This document shows, piece after piece, positions 88 to 12,856 of a stretch of DNA of 22,858 nt. The stretch covers positions 1 through 22,858 of the IMG/VR virus record IMGVR_UViG_3300025106_000012; one strand, 5' to 3'. Positions within the stretch are counted from its first letter, which is position 1, and each line of letters starts with the position of its first letter. The position numbers were made by a program, and so were the translations under genes. The DNA comes from a virus. A model generated the notes under the pieces. It ran no database searches and was not told the DNA's origin. It saw only the letters and a program-made list of their open reading frames with translations.

Positions 88-128
88 GCAGCCGTAGCTC
101 AATTGGATAGAGCATCTGACTACGGATT
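88..128 (+). tRNA. 5' half of tRNA-Arg(ACG), interrupted after the anticodon loop
   Basis: The sequence folds as the first half of a tRNA: acceptor strand 88-94, T8 and A9 at 95-96, D stem GCTC (97-100) pairing with GAGC (110-113), D loop with GG, A26 at 114, anticodon 5' stem TCTGA (115-119) and loop CTACGGA (120-126) with anticodon ACG at 122-124. It resembles bacterial tRNA-Arg(ACG) genes. The expected 3' stem TCAGA is not present; only the first T at 127 fits, and no T arm or acceptor complement follows. I infer that a phage integrated at the anticodon loop, and that an intact copy is rebuilt at the other end of the element. An intron or a decayed tRNA gene is the alternative. Confidence 0.8.
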
Positions 129-208: not shown

Positions 209-454
209 ATGAGCAAGGCTGAAAAACTGCGGGATAAAATCCTCTCCGGAAAGTCGGATAGAAATATCCGGTTCGCGGATCTCTGCAAGTTTGTCGAGGC
301 TCTGGGTTTTGTGTGTTCCTCCACCGCCACAAGCCACCACGTCTATTCCCGCCCTGACGTGGTTGAAATTTTGAACTTCCAAGACGATGCTGGCTCTGCC
401 AAACCTTACCAAGTGAAGCAGGCCAGAAAGATCGTCGAGAAATACAACCTATGA
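209..454 (+). CDS. hicA: HicA-type toxin (mRNA interferase)
   Basis: This 81-residue protein has the HicA layout: an N-terminal helix, then a beta segment around residues 32-40 ending in the catalytic histidine region (SHHVYSRP, residues 42-49), and the family signature AKPYQVKQ (64-71) followed by a C-terminal helix. HicA proteins are small double-stranded-RNA-binding-fold ribonucleases that cleave mRNA and are held inactive by HicB. The length is typical. The gene overlaps the downstream hicB-like gene by four bases (ATGA), which supports the pair. No strong Shine-Dalgarno sequence precedes the start; a short AGGA lies too close. It sits between the attachment site and the lysogeny region, a common place for phage accessory genes that protect the host or stabilise the element. 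Confidence 0.88.
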   Translation: MSKAEKLRDKILSGKSDRNIRFADLCKFVEALGFVCSSTATSHHVYSRPDVVEILNFQDDAGSAKPYQVKQARKIVEKYNL

Positions 455-846
455 ATTACCCTGTCTTTATCGTTTGGAGCCCTGAGGATGAGCGTTTCCT
501 TGCCCATGTGGTGGATCTCCCGGGTTGCGTGGCTGACGGGGCTACCCAGGCTGAGGCTCTTGCCAATGCAGACATCATCGCCTCTGACTGGATCGCCACC
601 GCGCAAGCGCTCGATCGCGAGATTCCTTCTCCAAGCTCGCAGGAGGATCTGGAGGCTGCTACGGCAGAGCAGCAGCGGGCGGCGGCTCAGGCTTTCGAGG
701 AGGCTGTCAAAACGGCTGTCTCTGACATTTTGGAAGATCTCGTGCCAAAAATCGCTCGAAATCTCGAGGGAAAGTATTTCCGCAAACAGCCGCCGGCGCT
801 TCATTCCCGCGGGGTGTTTCATCACAGAATTCTGGCCGGGGCCTGA
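451..846 (+). CDS. hicB: HicB-type antitoxin
   Basis: Residues 3-50 carry the HicB fold signature: YPVFIVWSPEDERFLAHVVDLPG, then a GATQAEALANAD helix, as in the partly degraded RNase H fold of HicB proteins. HicB binds and blocks HicA and often represses its own operon through a C-terminal HTH or RHH domain. The C-terminal third here (about residues 65-131) is helical and charged and then becomes basic (KYFRKQPPALHSRG). I cannot recognise a standard DNA-binding domain in it, so the tail may be altered or frame-damaged. The start overlaps hicA by four bases. The gene ends ten bases from the convergent gene on the - strand. Confidence 0.82.
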   Translation: MNYPVFIVWSPEDERFLAHVVDLPGCVADGATQAEALANADIIASDWIATAQALDREIPSPSSQEDLEAATAEQQRAAAQAFEEAVKTAVSDILEDLVPKIARNLEGKYFRKQPPALHSRGVFHHRILAGA

Positions 847-855
847 TGCGCGGGG

Positions 856-1287
856 TCACTGTGAAGAGCGGACAAGCAGAATCGTGACAGTTCGGTTCAC
901 TGTGTGGGTTGCTCCAGCCTCGTCATAACCCACAAGAGGTTTGGAAAATGTCATTTTGATGGTGTTTCGGAGAATCGTTGCTGTTCCGGTGACGCGGCCC
1001 AATCCACCAAAATTGATATCGAAAGCGCCATCGGACCCGAGTGCTCCGGCGCTGGTATACATGGCCGGAGCAATGATGAAAATGCGCCCCTCGGCTGTGA
1101 CCCGGGCGGTGATCTTCTGGACGGGATCGGCCTGTGATATAGACGCGTCGGGAAGTTCCGTGGTTTGTTTGAGTGTCCCAAGATAGCGGCCTGGAATCGG
1201 AGCAGCGGCAAGATCTACTGCGATAAATGCCAGTAGAAATGCCAGTATTCTAAGCGAAAATGTGATTCTCATGAGCGTTCTAGCCAA
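856..1287 (-). CDS. Secreted or envelope protein of unknown function, candidate lysogenic-conversion gene
   Basis: The protein begins LARTLMRITFSLRILAFLLA, a classic signal peptide: basic start, long hydrophobic core and a likely cleavage after AVDLAAA. About 110 mature residues follow, rich in T, V, G and A, with a GRYLGTL motif near the mature N-terminus and alternating beta-like stretches. The function is not recognised. I chose the TTG at 1287 because GGAG lies eight bases upstream and because it overlaps the stop of the RHH gene at 1280-1282. The ATG at 1272 is the alternative start. The two genes are therefore translationally coupled and transcribed away from the phage operon, so the protein may be made in the lysogen and exported. 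Confidence 0.65.
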   Translation of the reverse strand: MARTLMRITFSLRILAFLLAFIAVDLAAAPIPGRYLGTLKQTTELPDASISQADPVQKITARVTAEGRIFIIAPAMYTSAGALGSDGAFDINFGGLGRVTGTATILRNTIKMTFSKPLVGYDEAGATHTVNRTVTILLVRSSQ

Positions 1288-1645
1288 TGGATTTTCTCCT
1301 CGGCTGGGGCGGGGATTTCCTCTGCGTCGCGGAAGTCCTCGGGTCCACCGGCCGCTGCGCACCACCACCTCCTGAGCCCGCTGCAGCGGGGCTCTGGGGC
1401 TCCGACTTTTCCTGCCAATCAGGGGGTAATTGACCTAGTTGTGAAAGAGGATTTTCAACGGATACTCGAAAGAGAAAACCGTGTGAAATCGCAAACTTTA
1501 GCGCATGGCGAGCCCACGCACTTCTTGAGTGCCCCCCGGTTTTAGCAAGCTGATCCATTGCCTGTTCCTCTTCGCGTGTAAGCGTTGTGCTGATCGAGAC
1601 AGCGCCTTTTCCTGGTCCATGTCCGGTCTTCATACGAGAAAACAT
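1280..1645 (-). CDS. Ribbon-helix-helix (CopG/Arc-like) regulator
   Basis: Residues 14-55 fit the RHH fold: a beta strand GAVSISTTLT, helix one REEEQAMDQLAK, a turn with GGHSRS and helix two AWARHALKFAI. RHH proteins dimerise and insert the paired strands into the DNA major groove. The C-terminal half (about residues 65-121) is proline-, glycine- and basic-rich and probably disordered. The start at 1645 is the first ATG and has no clear Shine-Dalgarno sequence; ATG 1633 is possible. The promoter must lie in 1646-1726, shared with the rightward RHH genes. I infer a repressor role from this divergent arrangement. Confidence 0.72.
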   Translation of the reverse strand: MFSRMKTGHGPGKGAVSISTTLTREEEQAMDQLAKTGGHSRSAWARHALKFAISHGFLFRVSVENPLSQLGQLPPDWQEKSEPQSPAAAGSGGGGAQRPVDPRTSATQRKSPPQPRRKSIG

Positions 1646-1657
1646 GCGTTAATTGTC

Positions 1658-1682
1658 AAAATTTAACAAACAGTTAAATTTT
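1658..1682. promoter_or_regulatory. Perfect 10-bp inverted repeat, probable operator
   Basis: AAAATTTAAC (1658-1667) and GTTAAATTTT (1673-1682) are exact inverted copies around the five-base spacer AAACA. The site lies 13 bases upstream of the leftward RHH gene and just upstream of the -35 box of the rightward promoter. Its position and symmetry suggest binding by a dimeric repressor. AT-richness in a GC-rich region makes chance less likely. Confidence 0.6.
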
Positions 1683-1685
1683 CCA

Positions 1686-1713
1686 TTGACTTCCAACTGG
1701 AACCAGTTATTTC
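1686..1713 (+). promoter_or_regulatory. Rightward early promoter with embedded palindrome
   Basis: TTGACT (1686-1691) is a good -35 box. TATTTC at 1708-1713, 16 bases later, is a weak -10 box. Between them AACTGG (1695-1700) and CCAGTT (1703-1708) form a perfect inverted repeat around AA, so a bound repressor would cover the promoter. AGGAGA follows at 1715-1720. The repeat is seen directly; the promoter assignment is inferred. Confidence 0.5.
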
Positions 1714-1726
1714 TAGGAGAATGAGA

Positions 1727-1900
1727 GTGAATAAAGCTGCAGACAGAGTCATCAAGGGTGTCTCGATGCCAAAGCAGGTGGAAGACACGGCCCGCCAGCA
1801 AATGGAAAAGCGGCGCATTCGGACGTTCTCAAACTATATCGAGATCCTGATCTGTGAAGATGCAGGCCGGTCAAATACCCAAGAGGAGGCGGCGGCATGA
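1727..1900 (+). CDS. Small Arc-like ribbon-helix-helix protein
   Basis: This 57-residue reading frame (59 if ATG 1721 is used) has an RHH pattern: beta strand KGVSMPKQV (residues 10-18), helix one EDTARQQMEKR and, after RIRTFS, helix two NYIEILICED. I prefer GTG 1727 because AGGAGA ends six bases before it. ATG 1721 would directly abut the AGGAGA. The gene is the first of the rightward operon and overlaps the next by four bases (ATGA at 1897-1900). Its length is close to that of P22 Arc (53 residues). A Cro- or Arc-like role against the divergent RHH regulator is inferred from position. Confidence 0.62.
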   Translation: MNKAADRVIKGVSMPKQVEDTARQQMEKRRIRTFSNYIEILICEDAGRSNTQEEAAA

Positions 1901-2076
1901 GAAACAACAAGCCGCTAAACATCACGCTTCCTCCGCGCGTCCGGGCTGGTCTGGATCGGTTCTGCCTGCACACGGAGCGCAAGCGCGCCAACGTCATCGC
2001 GGACCTTCTCCGCCTGAAGCTGCGGGAGGAGGGATTCTTGAAATCTGTAACTGGAGACGAGGAGGTGGCGGCATGA
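1897..2076 (+). CDS. Second small ribbon-helix-helix protein
   Basis: The 59-residue protein has a strand LNITLPPRV (residues 7-15), helix RAGLDRFCLHTER and, after KRA, helix NVIADLLRLKLREEG, which is the RHH order. It starts in a four-base overlap with the previous RHH gene and ends in a four-base overlap with the next gene. GAGGAGGCGGCGGC lies just upstream of the start as a Shine-Dalgarno region. Two adjacent RHH genes in one operon could act as separate repressors or as a heterodimer. Which operator each would bind cannot be read from sequence. Confidence 0.6.
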   Translation: MRNNKPLNITLPPRVRAGLDRFCLHTERKRANVIADLLRLKLREEGFLKSVTGDEEVAA

Positions 2077-3144: not shown

Positions 3145-3255
3145 ATGGATCCCGCTTCATTCTGCCGCGCCGTTTCTTTTTTTCTGGAATATGCATTCCA
3201 CGTCGGTCCGGCCGCAGCGCTGTGTATTGCAGCTTGGAGGGTTTTCAAATGGTAG
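3145..3255 (+). CDS. 36-residue hydrophobic peptide
   Basis: An ATG one base after the previous stop opens a 36-codon frame (MDPASFCRAVSFFLEYAFHV, then GPAAALCIAAWRVFKW). It is mostly hydrophobic and could cross the membrane once. Its stop overlaps the start of the next gene (ATGGTAG). It contains a T7 run that is part of a repeated tract (see the repeat features). It could equally be a non-coding leader of the HTH gene, so confidence is low. Confidence 0.35.
   Translation: MDPASFCRAVSFFLEYAFHVGPAAALCIAAWRVFKW
3169..3190 (+). repeat. Poly-T repeat, copy 1
   Basis: GCCGTTTC, seven T, then CTGGAAT. The same tract recurs at 3494-3517 with eight T and one extra G. It reads AVSFFLEY in the small peptide frame. 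Confidence 0.55.
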
Positions 3256-3452
3256 AGGTCGAAAAGCACTACCGCACCCGCGAGGCCGCTGGACTGCTCG
3301 GCGTCCACATGCGGACTGTCCAGCAATGGGTGCGATCCGGTGATATTTCGCCAGTAATCCAGCTGGGCCGGCGTGATGTCCGGATCCCGGCCACGGCGCT
3401 GCAGCGGTTCCTTGACCATCGCACGCTCAAGAGAGGGGCTGCCGCGCTATGA
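3249..3452 (+). CDS. Excisionase-like / MerR-type helix-turn-helix protein
   Basis: The 67-residue protein carries a winged-HTH excisionase pattern: YRTREAAGLLGVHMRTVQQWVRSG (residues 8-31) for the two helices, then a strand-wing DISPVIQLGRRDVRIPATALQRFLD. This is the HTH_17 / AlpA-like family, found in phage excisionases and in regulators of early genes. The start at 3249 has GGAGG upstream with good spacing; earlier in-frame ATG 3222 lies inside the preceding peptide. It overlaps the next gene by four bases. Whether it works as Xis or as a transcription factor is open because no integrase is seen here. Confidence 0.72.
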   Translation: MVEVEKHYRTREAAGLLGVHMRTVQQWVRSGDISPVIQLGRRDVRIPATALQRFLDHRTLKRGAAAL

Positions 3453-4261
3453 AGCCATCCCCCCAGCTTCCAGCGGAGTCCCCTGCCCCCGCCGCCGTTT
3501 CTTTTTTTTCTGGGAATCAGGAGTCTGAAGATAATCAGGTTGTTCAGCCGGCTCTGTTCCCGGATGAGCAGGCTTACGAGGAGGCTGAGCGGCGGGGCGA
3601 CTGGACGCTGGAGCGGCTGAGAGTCCGCCGGCCTGAGATCCTGACGCTTGTCTGCCGAATGATTGCGGAGGGCCTTTCGAATCTGGCGATCGCCCGGGCA
3701 TGCAGGGTGAGCCCGAACACAGTCCTGGCAGTCCGCCGGCTCGAGCAGAAATCTATAGACGACCATAAACAGGAGCTCTTGGCCCTGACGCGCGGTGCGG
3801 CGCGGCTGACTCTGGAGCGAGTGATCGAGACTGCTCCGACAATGAAGCCAGGCGAAGCAAGCGTGGCGTTCGGGATCGTCACTGAAAAGATGCTTCTGCT
3901 GGGTGGCGATGCCACCACCATAGTCGGCACGGCATCAGACAAAATGAAGCATGCCGACTTCAATGAGATGCTGGCCGCGCTCCCGCAGGCTGACGTTATC
4001 GAAATGGGTTCATCGGGGGGAATTTCGGGACAAAGGGCGGGCGCGGGTGGTGAGGGTTCGGGGGCGATTTCTGGGGGATCTGGGGGCGATTCTGATTCCA
4101 GATCAGATGTTTTTGAGGGGGCTGCGATAGATAGTGAGGCGGCTGCTACGGGTTGTGATACGGGATGCGGATCTGTGGGGGATGTGGGGCCGCGTGCCGG
4201 TGGTGGCGATGACCAGGGGGGGAGGGGGTCCGCCGAAGGCGGGGGGGGCCATCAATCCTAA
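3449..4261 (+). CDS. HTH protein, small-terminase-like or phage DNA-binding, with suspicious Gly-rich tail
   Basis: The 270-residue product has a Pro-rich disordered start (1-45), a helical LRVRRPEILTLVCRMIAEG, a helix-turn-helix LSNLAIARACRVSPNTVLAV (about 75-94) and a helical domain with TMKPGEASVAFGIVTEKMLLL (about 131-151). This order is common in phage HTH proteins and in small terminase subunits. The large terminase is 9 kb away, so an early DNA-binding role is equally possible. From about residue 188 the sequence becomes almost pure Gly, Ser, Asp and Ala up to the stop. Third-position G bias moves to the +1 frame at that point (see the finding), so the real C-terminus may differ. The start overlaps the previous gene (ATGA). 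Confidence 0.6.
   Translation: MKPSPQLPAESPAPAAVSFFSGNQESEDNQVVQPALFPDEQAYEEAERRGDWTLERLRVRRPEILTLVCRMIAEGLSNLAIARACRVSPNTVLAVRRLEQKSIDDHKQELLALTRGAARLTLERVIETAPTMKPGEASVAFGIVTEKMLLLGGDATTIVGTASDKMKHADFNEMLAALPQADVIEMGSSGGISGQRAGAGGEGSGAISGGSGGDSDSRSDVFEGAAIDSEAAATGCDTGCGSVGDVGPRAGGGDDQGGRGSAEGGGGHQS
3494..3517 (+). repeat. Poly-T repeat, copy 2
   Basis: GCCGTTTC, eight T, then CTGGGAAT, the partner of 3169-3190. The extra T changes the downstream reading relative to copy 1: it encodes AVSFFSGN here. Confidence 0.55.
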
Positions 4262-8168: not shown

Positions 8169-9546
8169 GGCTGAGGTGCAACTGCCGCAGAACATCGATG
8201 CGGAGAAGGGGCTGCTGGGCTCGATGCTGCAGAGCGGGGATGCGATCGACGGGTGCGCGAACATGGAGCCGGAGGCGTTTATCGTGCCGGCGCATGCGGT
8301 GGTGTTTGAGACGATCCGGGAGATGCGGGCGCGGATGGTGCCGGTGGATCCGATCACGGTGGGGGCTGCGCTGGAGAAGCGGGAGGTGCCGCTGGAGGTG
8401 GAGAATGCGGAGTTCTTCCTGATGGATTTGTTCACGTTTGTCCCGAGCGCGGCGAATTGGGACCACTATGCGGATCTGGTGCTGGAGGCGCATGGACGGC
8501 GGAAGGTGATCGCGGTGGGGACGTGGATGGACCGGTTTGCGCGGGGGCACCGGGGCCAGCTGGATGAGCTGATGAATGAGGTGGAGCAGAAGTTCATGGA
8601 GATGCGGGGCGGTGGCCGGAGCGATGATGCGCTGAAGCCGGTGAAGACGTTTGTGAATGATGCGGTGGACAGCCTGGAATCTGTTTTCAAGAACCGTGGG
8701 AAGCCGATCGGGTTGACGACGGGCCTGGTGGATCTGGACCGGATGACTGGGGGGCTGAAAAACACGCTGCTCTACGTGATCGCGGGCCGGCCGAGCATGG
8801 GGAAGACGGTGCTGGGGATGCAGATCGCGACCCATAATGCGCTGCAGGGGGTGCCGGTGGCGGTCTACTCGCTGGAGATGTCGGGCGCGGAGCTGGCGGA
8901 GCGGATGCTGGGAACGCAGGCGTCGATCAATCTGCAGCGGTGGCGGGATGGGTTTCTGGAAAAGGGTGACATGCCGCGGATCGGGGCGGTGGCGGATGAG
9001 ATTGCGCGGAGCAGCATGTGGATCGATGAGACGGCGTCGCTGACGATCATGGATCTGCGCGCCAGGGCGCGACGGGCGGTGACGAAGCGGGGGGCCCGGC
9101 TGATCGTGATCGATTACCTGCAGCTGCTGCGGGCGCCGAGCAAGCGGGCGGAGTTCAGCCGCGCGGCGGAGGTGGCGGACATTAGCATGAACCTGAAGGC
9201 GATGGCTAAGGAGCTGAAGGTGCCGGTGATCGTGTGCGCGCAGCTCAATCGCGAAAATGATGGCAAGCGGCCGGCGCTGTCGAACCTGCGGGAGAGCGGC
9301 CAGATCGAGCAGGATGCGGATGTGGCGGCGCTGATTCACCGGCCGTGGTTCGGAAAGGATCTGGAGGATGAGCAGAGATCGGAGTTTGCGGCGGAGGGTG
9401 AGCCGGCTGAGCTGATCGTGGCGAAGCAGAGGAACGGGCCGATCGGTCCGGTGGATCTGCGGTTCTTCGGCGCGTTTACCAGGTTTGAGGGAACGACGAA
9501 GAAAGCGTTCTCGAACAATAAAGCGGAAAGGCAAAAGAAAAAATGA
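8161..9546 (+). CDS. dnaB: Replicative DNA helicase, DnaB family
   Basis: The 461-residue protein has the DnaB order: an N-terminal primase-interaction domain (about 1-110: LPQNIDAEKGLLGSML near the start), a linker, then the RecA-like ATPase. Walker A is AGRPSMGKT (208-216), Walker B LIVIDYLQL (314-322), followed by KELKVPVIVCAQLNR and the characteristic SGQIEQDADVAALIHRP (379-395), which contains the glutamine-acidic switch region. The hexamer unwinds DNA ahead of the fork. The length is normal for a phage DnaB. The gene begins inside the end of the loader-like gene, so the two are made together. It ends in a lysine-rich tail and overlaps the next gene by four bases (ATGA). Confidence 0.92.
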   Translation: MNRAEVQLPQNIDAEKGLLGSMLQSGDAIDGCANMEPEAFIVPAHAVVFETIREMRARMVPVDPITVGAALEKREVPLEVENAEFFLMDLFTFVPSAANWDHYADLVLEAHGRRKVIAVGTWMDRFARGHRGQLDELMNEVEQKFMEMRGGGRSDDALKPVKTFVNDAVDSLESVFKNRGKPIGLTTGLVDLDRMTGGLKNTLLYVIAGRPSMGKTVLGMQIATHNALQGVPVAVYSLEMSGAELAERMLGTQASINLQRWRDGFLEKGDMPRIGAVADEIARSSMWIDETASLTIMDLRARARRAVTKRGARLIVIDYLQLLRAPSKRAEFSRAAEVADISMNLKAMAKELKVPVIVCAQLNRENDGKRPALSNLRESGQIEQDADVAALIHRPWFGKDLEDEQRSEFAAEGEPAELIVAKQRNGPIGPVDLRFFGAFTRFEGTTKKAFSNNKAERQKKK

Positions 9547-9938
9547 GCAAATTGATCTCTTACAACTGCTGGACGTGCCCGGTGTGCAAGGTTGTAAATG
9601 CGTGTGTGGGCGTTGGAAAATTCTCATGCACGCGGTGCGGGTGTGAGGTTGAGACGGTGAAGTGTAGCGATCACGAGGATTTGCTGGTGAAGAGATACCA
9701 CCCTGATCGCAAGGGTGCTGGATCTTTCAGCTACATGCCGTGGGTTGCTAAGATTGATGAGGTGGTGGGTGTGGAGATTCGGGTGGCGCGCTGCATTGTG
9801 CTGACGACGTTGCCTTGCGGGGCGCGGGTGGAGCTGTGGCCGGGCCAGCCGTTGCCGGATAAGGATGTGCCGTGCCCGTGTGGAAACCCGAAGCATTGGC
9901 TGTGGAGGTTTACGGATGGTGAAAGGGGGGTGGCGTGA
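9543..9938 (+). CDS. Cysteine-rich zinc-ribbon phage protein
   Basis: The 131-residue protein has four cysteine knuckles: CWTCPVC near residues 9-15, CTRCGC at 29-34, a CSDH at about 41-44, and CPCGNPKHW near the end. It probably binds one or two zinc ions. It starts in an ATGA overlap with the helicase gene and has an A-rich leader. Codon use is less G-biased than in the helicase gene, as in the whole 9.5-13.3 kb block. The function is unknown. Confidence 0.6.
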   Translation: MSKLISYNCWTCPVCKVVNACVGVGKFSCTRCGCEVETVKCSDHEDLLVKRYHPDRKGAGSFSYMPWVAKIDEVVGVEIRVARCIVLTTLPCGARVELWPGQPLPDKDVPCPCGNPKHWLWRFTDGERGVA

Positions 9939-11877: not shown

Positions 11878-11899
11878 CTTGTTCTCAGGATTTTATTTT

Positions 11900-12856
11900 A
11901 TGGAAAACTCGAAAATCGAATGGACCGATCACACGTTTAACCCGTGGATCGGCTGCACTAAAGTAAGCCCAGGATGCACGCATTGCTACGCGGAGACCCT
12001 GATGGATACGCGACTCGGGCGCGTGAAATGGGGTGCGAGAAATGCCCGGATGCTCACGAGCGCCGCGAACTGGAAGCTACCGCTAAAATGGAACAGGGAT
12101 GCCTTGCTGCCAGAAAATCTCGAATGCCTGGTTTGTGGCTCGAGCAATAGCTTCGGACTCAACGCTGACGGTTTTTGTGAAACCTGTGAAATTGAAGGAT
12201 TCCCCATTCGCCCCCGCGTGTTCTGCGCGTCGCTTGCTGACTGGCTCGATGATGAGGTTCCTGCTGACTGGCTGGCGAGGCTTCTTGAGCTGATTTCCGC
12301 CACCCAGAATCTCGACTGGCTGCTTCTCACAAAGAGGCCGGAAAACTGGAATATGCGAATGGCCAAGGCGCAATCCATCAGGGTCGATGGTTATTCGTTT
12401 CCTGCCGCCCGCGAGATGATCGACGATTGGCACGCTGGAAAGCCTCCGGGAAATGTCTGGATCGGAACCAGTGTTGAGGACCAGAAGCGTGCGGATGAAC
12501 GGATTCCGAAGCTGCTGAATATCCCGGCCCGCATCCGCTTTCTTTCCTGCGAGCCGCTTCTTGGACCTGTGGATATTCAGGCAGCCATCAATAAAGTTCC
12601 GTGGGTAATAGGAGGTGGGAACGCTGAAATCCATTGGGTAATCTGCGGCGGCGAGAGCGGACCCGGATCACGCCCGATGCAGCCGGAATGGGCTCGGCAA
12701 CTCCGCGACGATTGCGAGCGAGCGGATGTTGCCTTCCTATTCAAGCAATGGGGTGGATTGGACAAAAAAGCAACTGGCCGAGAACTGGACGGACGGACGC
12801 ACGACGATATTCCTGAGAACGCAGAAGTGACCGGGGCGAAGGATTCCGTCCAGTGA
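11900..12856 (+). CDS. DUF5131 (phage Gp37/Gp68) radical-SAM-like protein
   Basis: The 318-residue protein opens IEWTDHTFNPWIGCTKVSPG and has C19, C26 and C29, a C-x6-C-x2-C arrangement like a radical-SAM iron-sulfur site. Family signatures follow: LTKRPENW, NVWIGTSVEDQ, RFLSCEPLLGPVDI, WVICGGESGPGSRPM and FLFKQWGG. Such proteins occur in many phages and their reaction is unproven. A zinc-ribbon-like insert (C76, C79, C93, C96) sits between the Cys motif and the rest. Start ATG 11900 has AGGA about 11 bases upstream; an in-frame TTG lies at 11879. Codon use lacks the G3 bias of the phage core, which suggests recent acquisition. Confidence 0.85.
   Translation: MENSKIEWTDHTFNPWIGCTKVSPGCTHCYAETLMDTRLGRVKWGARNARMLTSAANWKLPLKWNRDALLPENLECLVCGSSNSFGLNADGFCETCEIEGFPIRPRVFCASLADWLDDEVPADWLARLLELISATQNLDWLLLTKRPENWNMRMAKAQSIRVDGYSFPAAREMIDDWHAGKPPGNVWIGTSVEDQKRADERIPKLLNIPARIRFLSCEPLLGPVDIQAAINKVPWVIGGGNAEIHWVICGGESGPGSRPMQPEWARQLRDDCERADVAFLFKQWGGLDKKATGRELDGRTHDDIPENAEVTGAKDSVQ

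Follow-up and report, generated by a model that had tools for sequence, protein, structure and literature searches.

Organization of the control region

The sequence analysed is a linear virus contig of 22,858 bp, a 22.9-kb fragment referred to below as the window, in which two oppositely oriented sets of genes are separated by a gap of 75 bp (Table 1). The three open reading frames listed for this region in the first-pass annotation were all found: one leftward, encoding the protein named here RHHL, and two rightward, encoding R1 and R2. The gap between RHHL and R1 holds two palindromes. The R1 and R2 genes overlap by 4 bp and both end in the same GAGGAGGnGGCGGCATGA junction, so each of them looks translationally coupled to the next gene.

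Further to the right, the small genes are followed by the HTH_17 gene, the marker HTH gene, and genes of an exonuclease, DUF2303, a replication initiator and DnaB, and then by a terminase-like and an SU10-type capsid protein gene; the terminase-like gene, being without family match, is so labelled by its position and homology to relatives. The description of the region as built only from ribbon-helix-helix (RHH) proteins was too strong, as the HTH_17 gene and the further HTH gene share the rightward operon.

In the leftward operon, the protein encoded next to RHHL gave no match in a Pfam scan; several relatives carry a leftward lipoprotein gene directly after RHHL. The HicA/HicB-like genes directly adjoin the attachment site, and the HicB-like protein matches its family in the N-terminal part only, with no DNA-binding domain detected in the remainder. 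A DUF5131 gene, whose role in the phage is unassigned, is located at 11879-12856 (Pfam E=3e-85).

Table 1. Features of the control region and its surroundings in the window
Feature	Position	Strand	Basis or remark
5' half of tRNA-Arg(ACG), ending in the anticodon loop; attachment-site sequence	88-127	+	Sequence; relatives
HicA/HicB-like toxin-antitoxin pair	209-846	+	Pfam/PHROG matches; neighbour, outside the switch
Secreted/signal-peptide-like protein	856-1272	-	ORF; follows RHHL by 7 bp as second leftward-operon gene
RHHL, proposed immunity repressor	1280-1645	-	Held-out profile, syntenic homologues, AlphaFold/Foldseek
Putative DNA-reading ribbon of RHHL, AVSISTTL, residues 15-22 (x1=A15, x2=S17)	1580-1603	-	Alignment; co-variation in relatives
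Left palindrome AAAATTTAAC-AAACA-GTTAAATTTT (10+5+10), candidate second operator	1658-1682		
Probable -35 element TTGACT of the rightward promoter	1686-1691	+	Comparison with relatives
Right operator TTCCA-AC-TGGAA, TTCCAACTGGAA	1691-1702		12-bp palindrome; family motif TTC-N6-GAA
Palindrome AACTGG-AA-CCAGTT (6+2+6)	1695-1708		Overlaps the 1691-1702 operator; takes in part of a second box 10 bp further along
R1, 59 aa, first rightward gene	1721-1900	+	RHH-like by eye, putative
R2, 59 aa, second rightward gene	1897-2076	+	Weak RHH_5 match; alignment
HTH_17 protein, excisionase/MerR-like	3249-3452	+	Pfam E=3e-12, PHROG 66; downstream in the rightward operon
Conserved HTH-containing early gene, marker for finding relatives	3449-4261	+	

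The leftward and rightward proteins

All three proteins had been taken for RHH proteins, which was confirmed for RHHL, is weakly indicated for R2 and found no match to back it for R1. The window RHHL was recognized by a profile of its family built without it (E=1.5e-17), and its AlphaFold model consists of an extended ribbon followed by two confident helices (24-37 and 41-54). The top Foldseek matches of this model were CopG/Arc-type and other RHH proteins, at non-significant values (E>0.8), and the RHHLs of relatives match RHH_1 weakly, under the cut-off (17.2 bits for L234). RHHL is a member of the RHH (MetJ/Arc/CopG) superfamily, for which a profile or a fold is the criterion. Its assignment as a NikA/MobC mobilisation protein was rejected: the Pfam match lies far under the cut-off and no relaxase was seen.

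R2 matches Pfam RHH_5 at E=0.028, under the cut-off, and in the alignment its segment PLNITLP resembles the PLTVTLP ribbon of relatives. R1 gave no RHH match in Pfam or NCBIfam that would place it in the superfamily, and its single-sequence AlphaFold model, which is a weak test, is one long helix, so this structure lends no support to R1 as an RHH protein. A profile of the relatives' rightward RHH proteins missed both R1 (E=0.29) and R2 (E=1.2). The rightward proteins of relatives are themselves members of the RHH superfamily, those of L086, L090 and L216 exceeding the RHH_1 curated cut-off of 20.5 bits, and a profile of the aligned proteins matches CopG (E=4e-6).

With CopG and antitoxins as the top fold and profile matches, the pair might be a plasmid-type maintenance or toxin-antitoxin regulator (CopG/ParG/antitoxin) with no role in lysogeny. 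No toxin or ParA partner was noticed in the operons seen, however, and dozens of phages have the pair at one fixed place, where the early operon begins. We hold this reading to be very improbable.

Palindromes, promoter and operator motif

Both perfect palindromes claimed for the gap, at 1658-1682 and 1695-1708, are present. Of dinucleotide-shuffled sequences, 0.5% had a longest arm of 10 within 75 bp. Taken by itself, the 6+6 palindrome falls short of significance, two arms of at least 6 having P=0.07 in shuffles. The two-palindrome architecture of the window recurs in relatives, and in a blind search nearly every region of theirs had a TTC-N6-GAA palindrome, often doubled at about 10 bp.

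The site at 1691-1702 is the only TTCYNNNNRGAA match in the window. Taking the window together with five relatives, there are one to four such matches per genome, and in each of the six genomes one or two of them fall in the intergenic region between RHHL and the rightward gene. The left palindrome of the window has no match to the operator motif and was rejected as an RHHL site, unlike the left element of L086, L087, L089 and L092, which does match it. A second element, GCAAGAATTnTCTTGCG, is kept in the intergenic regions of L086, L191, L089, L263 and L277 despite their differing RHHL specificities, and is a candidate site of the rightward RHH protein.

Placing one palindrome inside a rightward promoter, as the first reading did, gains little from consensus matching (one promoter found, 1.9 expected); only the comparison with relatives strengthens TTGACT as its -35 element. 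Of 26 regions, 18 have a TTG just 5' of the operator (background 15%), although in L262, L263 and L277 it is possibly part of a neighbouring operator copy. This placement is consistent with the operator occupying the spacer between -35 and -10.

Relatives and breadth of the arrangement

Relatives were found only through replication-protein and marker-gene alignments. A single-sequence RHHL search of viral contigs and phages returned nothing, as did a TerL search, and a near-identity search of the window among named phages gave no match. Alignment of the replication protein led to viral contigs that share the early region. In five of them (L086, L087, L089, L090 and L092) the position and orientation of RHHL are taken by a homologue; the gene facing it, 78-84 bp away, encodes a rightward protein of 57-58 aa, and in four of the five this protein scores above the RHH_1 cut-off. 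Longer maps run from late genes through a giant virion protein, a tyrosine integrase (predicted, see below) and two small genes to the leftward operon headed by RHHL, to the right of which lie the divergent RHH gene, HTH_17, the marker and the replication genes.

RHHL and marker searches added about 100 more loci with 45 distinct divergent RHH pairs, 26 of them below 85% identity. Among 80 marker loci the pair was present in 66 and absent from five, the remaining nine having too little upstream sequence, so that the gene order, which the first-pass annotation proposed to look for elsewhere, recurs in 66 of the 71 testable loci. These 66 comprise 52 recognized automatically and 14 with overlapping long ORFs and the same geometry. 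Several unrelated RHH sequence types occupy the slot; the seeds for three of the types were hand-picked from the same loci.

In two loci without the pair, L260 and L282, a C1-type HTH gene stands in the RHHL position. That of L260 encodes 143 aa and matches HTH_3 above the cut-off; that of L282 (146 aa) was assigned by sequence similarity. Two others, L264 and L291, have a 49-aa gene opposite a short gene resembling an RHH protein, and L261 has neither an RHH pair nor an integrase match. As had been noted for the window, no CI/Cro-type HTH is present: no HTH_3-type repressor, the mark of a CI/Cro immunity region, was found in the seven contigs scanned (the window, itself a fragment, and six relatives), and one of 28 further contigs has an HTH_3 match above the cut-off, namely the gene that replaces RHHL in L260. 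The strongest argument for the RHHL slot being the repressor slot is this natural exchange of RHHL for a C1-type gene.

The leftward operon headed by RHHL contains ArdC-/ArdA-like anti-restriction genes, recognized by eye, at 1421-2389 in L089, 6404-6928 in L092 and 3834-4352 in L229. A small protein with a 'IETSPPGGIVDWNGNVLGAAPV'-type (PEGA-like) stretch is encoded by the gene after RHHL in L219, L220, L225, L238, L244 and others, and also near the integrase in G003, G004, G007 and G009; it is a candidate lysogenic-conversion gene. In the same four G contigs the interval between integrase and RHHL repeatedly contains an accessory gene for a secreted protein that, by eye, resembles formylglycine-generating enzyme.

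With regard to hosts, an RHHL search of eight Verrucomicrobiota/Planctomycetota genomes carrying the replication gene found nothing, and 6 of 388 genomes sampled from the phylum to which a Verrucomicrobiia MAG belongs have the marker gene, with other regulators close to it. No host or lysogen carrying exactly this module was seen. A chromosomal relative on a 3.75-Mb contig, G144 (L298), has RHH-like and XRE-like genes (by eye) in its leftward operon, at 9228-9914 and 12044-12250.

Co-variation of RHHL with the operator core

One operator per locus was chosen by a script that did not use protein sequences; in L192 the finder took a wrong site, and the site was read by eye instead. Across relatives, the outward ribbon residue x2 of RHHL predicts the six-base core of the operator. 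The cores are TAGGTA, TAGCTA or TACCTA for R, TTGCAA for W, Y or H, TCACGA for S (four relatives), CCATGG for D, TTATAA for I or L, TATACA for V, TAATTA for N and CTGTAG for F; L199 and L230 fit the rule only roughly. Pairs with the same x2 share 4.6 of the 6 core bases versus 2.5, with P=0.0005 as the lowest value that 2000 permutations can give; the tracking is just as good among RHHL proteins whose identity outside the ribbon is below 40%.

Two loci with 100% identical rightward proteins, L227 and L234, differ in x2 (V to N) and in the core (TATACA to TAATTA), and between L191 and L194, with 98% identical rightward proteins, x2 changes from R to W and the core from TAGCTA to TTGCAA. With rightward ribbons set by hand and the window left out, loci with the same x2 and different rightward ribbons have 5.5 of 6 core bases in common, and those with the same rightward ribbon and different x2 have 2.6, which is background. 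Because the core follows x2 and not the rightward ribbon, it is most likely RHHL, rather than the rightward RHH protein, that reads the TTC-N6-GAA operator.

The small rightward protein could instead be the reader of the right operator, acting as an Arc-like autorepressor: the operator falls within the rightward promoter, and P22 Arc controls its own promoter (PMC7549136). This conflicts with the finding that operators sharing a rightward ribbon but not x2 are only as alike as background, and we hold it to be very improbable. The suggestion that each palindrome could serve a different repressor is supported for one of its halves, as the right operator does co-vary with the RHHL ribbon and not with the rightward one.

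The window does not obey this residue rule: it combines x2=S with the core CAACTG and has x1=A in place of S or M, and therefore at least one further contact must matter. The co-variation speaks for recognition, not for repression or immunity.

Integrase, attachment site and temperate lifestyle

The tRNA-Arg 5' half found in the window recurs in four relatives, immediately before the integrase. As the phages carry tRNA-Arg(ACG) from its 5' end to the anticodon loop, the tRNA would be made whole from the 5' side upon integration, in contrast to the usual tRNA attachment by duplication of the 3' end. The tyrosine integrase of relatives is predicted from matches below the Pfam cut-off, at about E=3e-7 in L086 and L090 and 0.003 in L087; 20 of 28 further contigs have an integrase match. 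The relatives thus possess both integrase and attachment site, by which a temperate phage is recognized, and the window has the attachment sequence only. No integrase is present on its contig, and the case for its lysogeny is made by this sequence and by the relatives.

The lack of an integrase in the window, and the ArdA/ArdC-like and other small genes of the relatives' leftward operon, would also suit RHHL as a timing repressor and autoregulator of the early genes and of a leftward accessory/anti-restriction operon, with lysogeny depending on another factor or the phages not being truly lysogenic. Several observations weigh against it: the module adjoins the integrase and attachment site, a C1-type gene takes the RHHL slot, L261, without an integrase match, is also without the RHH pair, and the operator specificities are as varied as expected of immunity groups. 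We regard this explanation as unlikely.

Comparison with known systems

P22 Mnt and Arc consist of 82 and 53 aa, respectively (PMC7549136). Mnt represses arc and ant, and Arc represses mnt and moderates ant (PMC11016777), within immI, a secondary region that works through Ant beside C2/Cro (PMC11016777, PMC7549136, PMC2629481). In our phages, as in immI, two small RHH-type repressors (91-121 and 48-60 aa) would govern a phage promoter region; here, however, no Ant and no C2/Cro were found, and the pair heads the early operon near the integrase. The Pfam Arc model is absent among the matches, as is an antirepressor ant among those of the scanned genes between 2073 and 4261. The earlier likening to Arc/Mnt therefore applies to the layout and not to Arc family membership, and neither P22 Arc/Mnt family proteins nor a P22-type immI were identified. 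The best reading by analogy is that the module may work like P22 immI promoted to main switch.

In SSV1 it is the RHH protein F55 that has a CI-like function; it occupies tandem repeats at its own promoter as well as at early promoters (PMC5569661). It resembles RHHL in this proposed lysogeny role, but SSV1 is an archaeal fusellovirus with a single RHH regulator, tandem ATAGATAG sites and no divergent RHH partner described. In Pf prophages, insertion of an Arc-family gene accompanies deletion of the repressor gene orf89 in 12 of 182 (PMC7549136). Pf, however, is an inovirus, the role of the Arc gene is putative, and neither a divergent RHH pair nor an operator code is described.

With lambda-type CI/Cro regions the module shares divergent repressor genes around early-promoter operators, diversified operator specificities and a C1-type gene in the same slot (L260, L282); it differs in that the lambda type uses the HTH_3 fold and recognition here would be through a beta-ribbon. 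Our search, conducted for the most part outside subscription journals, found no paper in which two divergent RHH genes are described as the principal immunity region of tailed phages.

Proposed mechanism

Dozens of relatives with divergent pairs, integrases and no CI/Cro support the core of the first-pass annotation, a phage switch of RHH proteins, in which the assignment of both small rightward proteins to RHH is putative. Judging from these comparisons of sequences, this is probably the region by which a temperate tailed phage controls immunity (lysis or lysogeny), with RHHL repressing and the rightward RHH protein being Arc/Cro-like. RHHL, made from the first gene of the leftward operon, would bind the doubled TTC-N6-GAA operator as RHH dimers. 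Since this operator appears to sit between -35 and -10 of the rightward early promoter, RHHL may shut off the early genes in a lysogen, i.e. those of the small RHH protein, the excisionase-like HTH_17 protein and replication, and it is probably an autoregulator as well. Upon derepression, the short rightward protein or proteins would be made first and serve as the Arc/Cro-like counterpart, probably at the left palindrome close to the leftward promoter.

For the whole temperate phage lineage we lean, by a little, towards RHH repressors as the sole immunity repressors, whose groups would diverge mainly through one RHHL ribbon residue and six operator bases, in what is nearly a one-residue code.

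Significance

Phage immunity has been modelled on helix-turn-helix repressors, and RHH repressors in phages are known mainly as side regulators, as in P22 immI, with a CI-like role in the archaeal virus SSV1. Uncultured temperate phages of a widespread group appear to take the decision between lysis and lysogeny through two divergent RHH genes around one short operator region, without a lambda-type repressor. Natural RHH repressors with their operators, differing from one another at a single ribbon residue, are a ready data set for the study of DNA recognition by the beta-ribbon, and they inform how immunity specificities diverge. The absence of a CI gene is no ground for calling a phage virulent.
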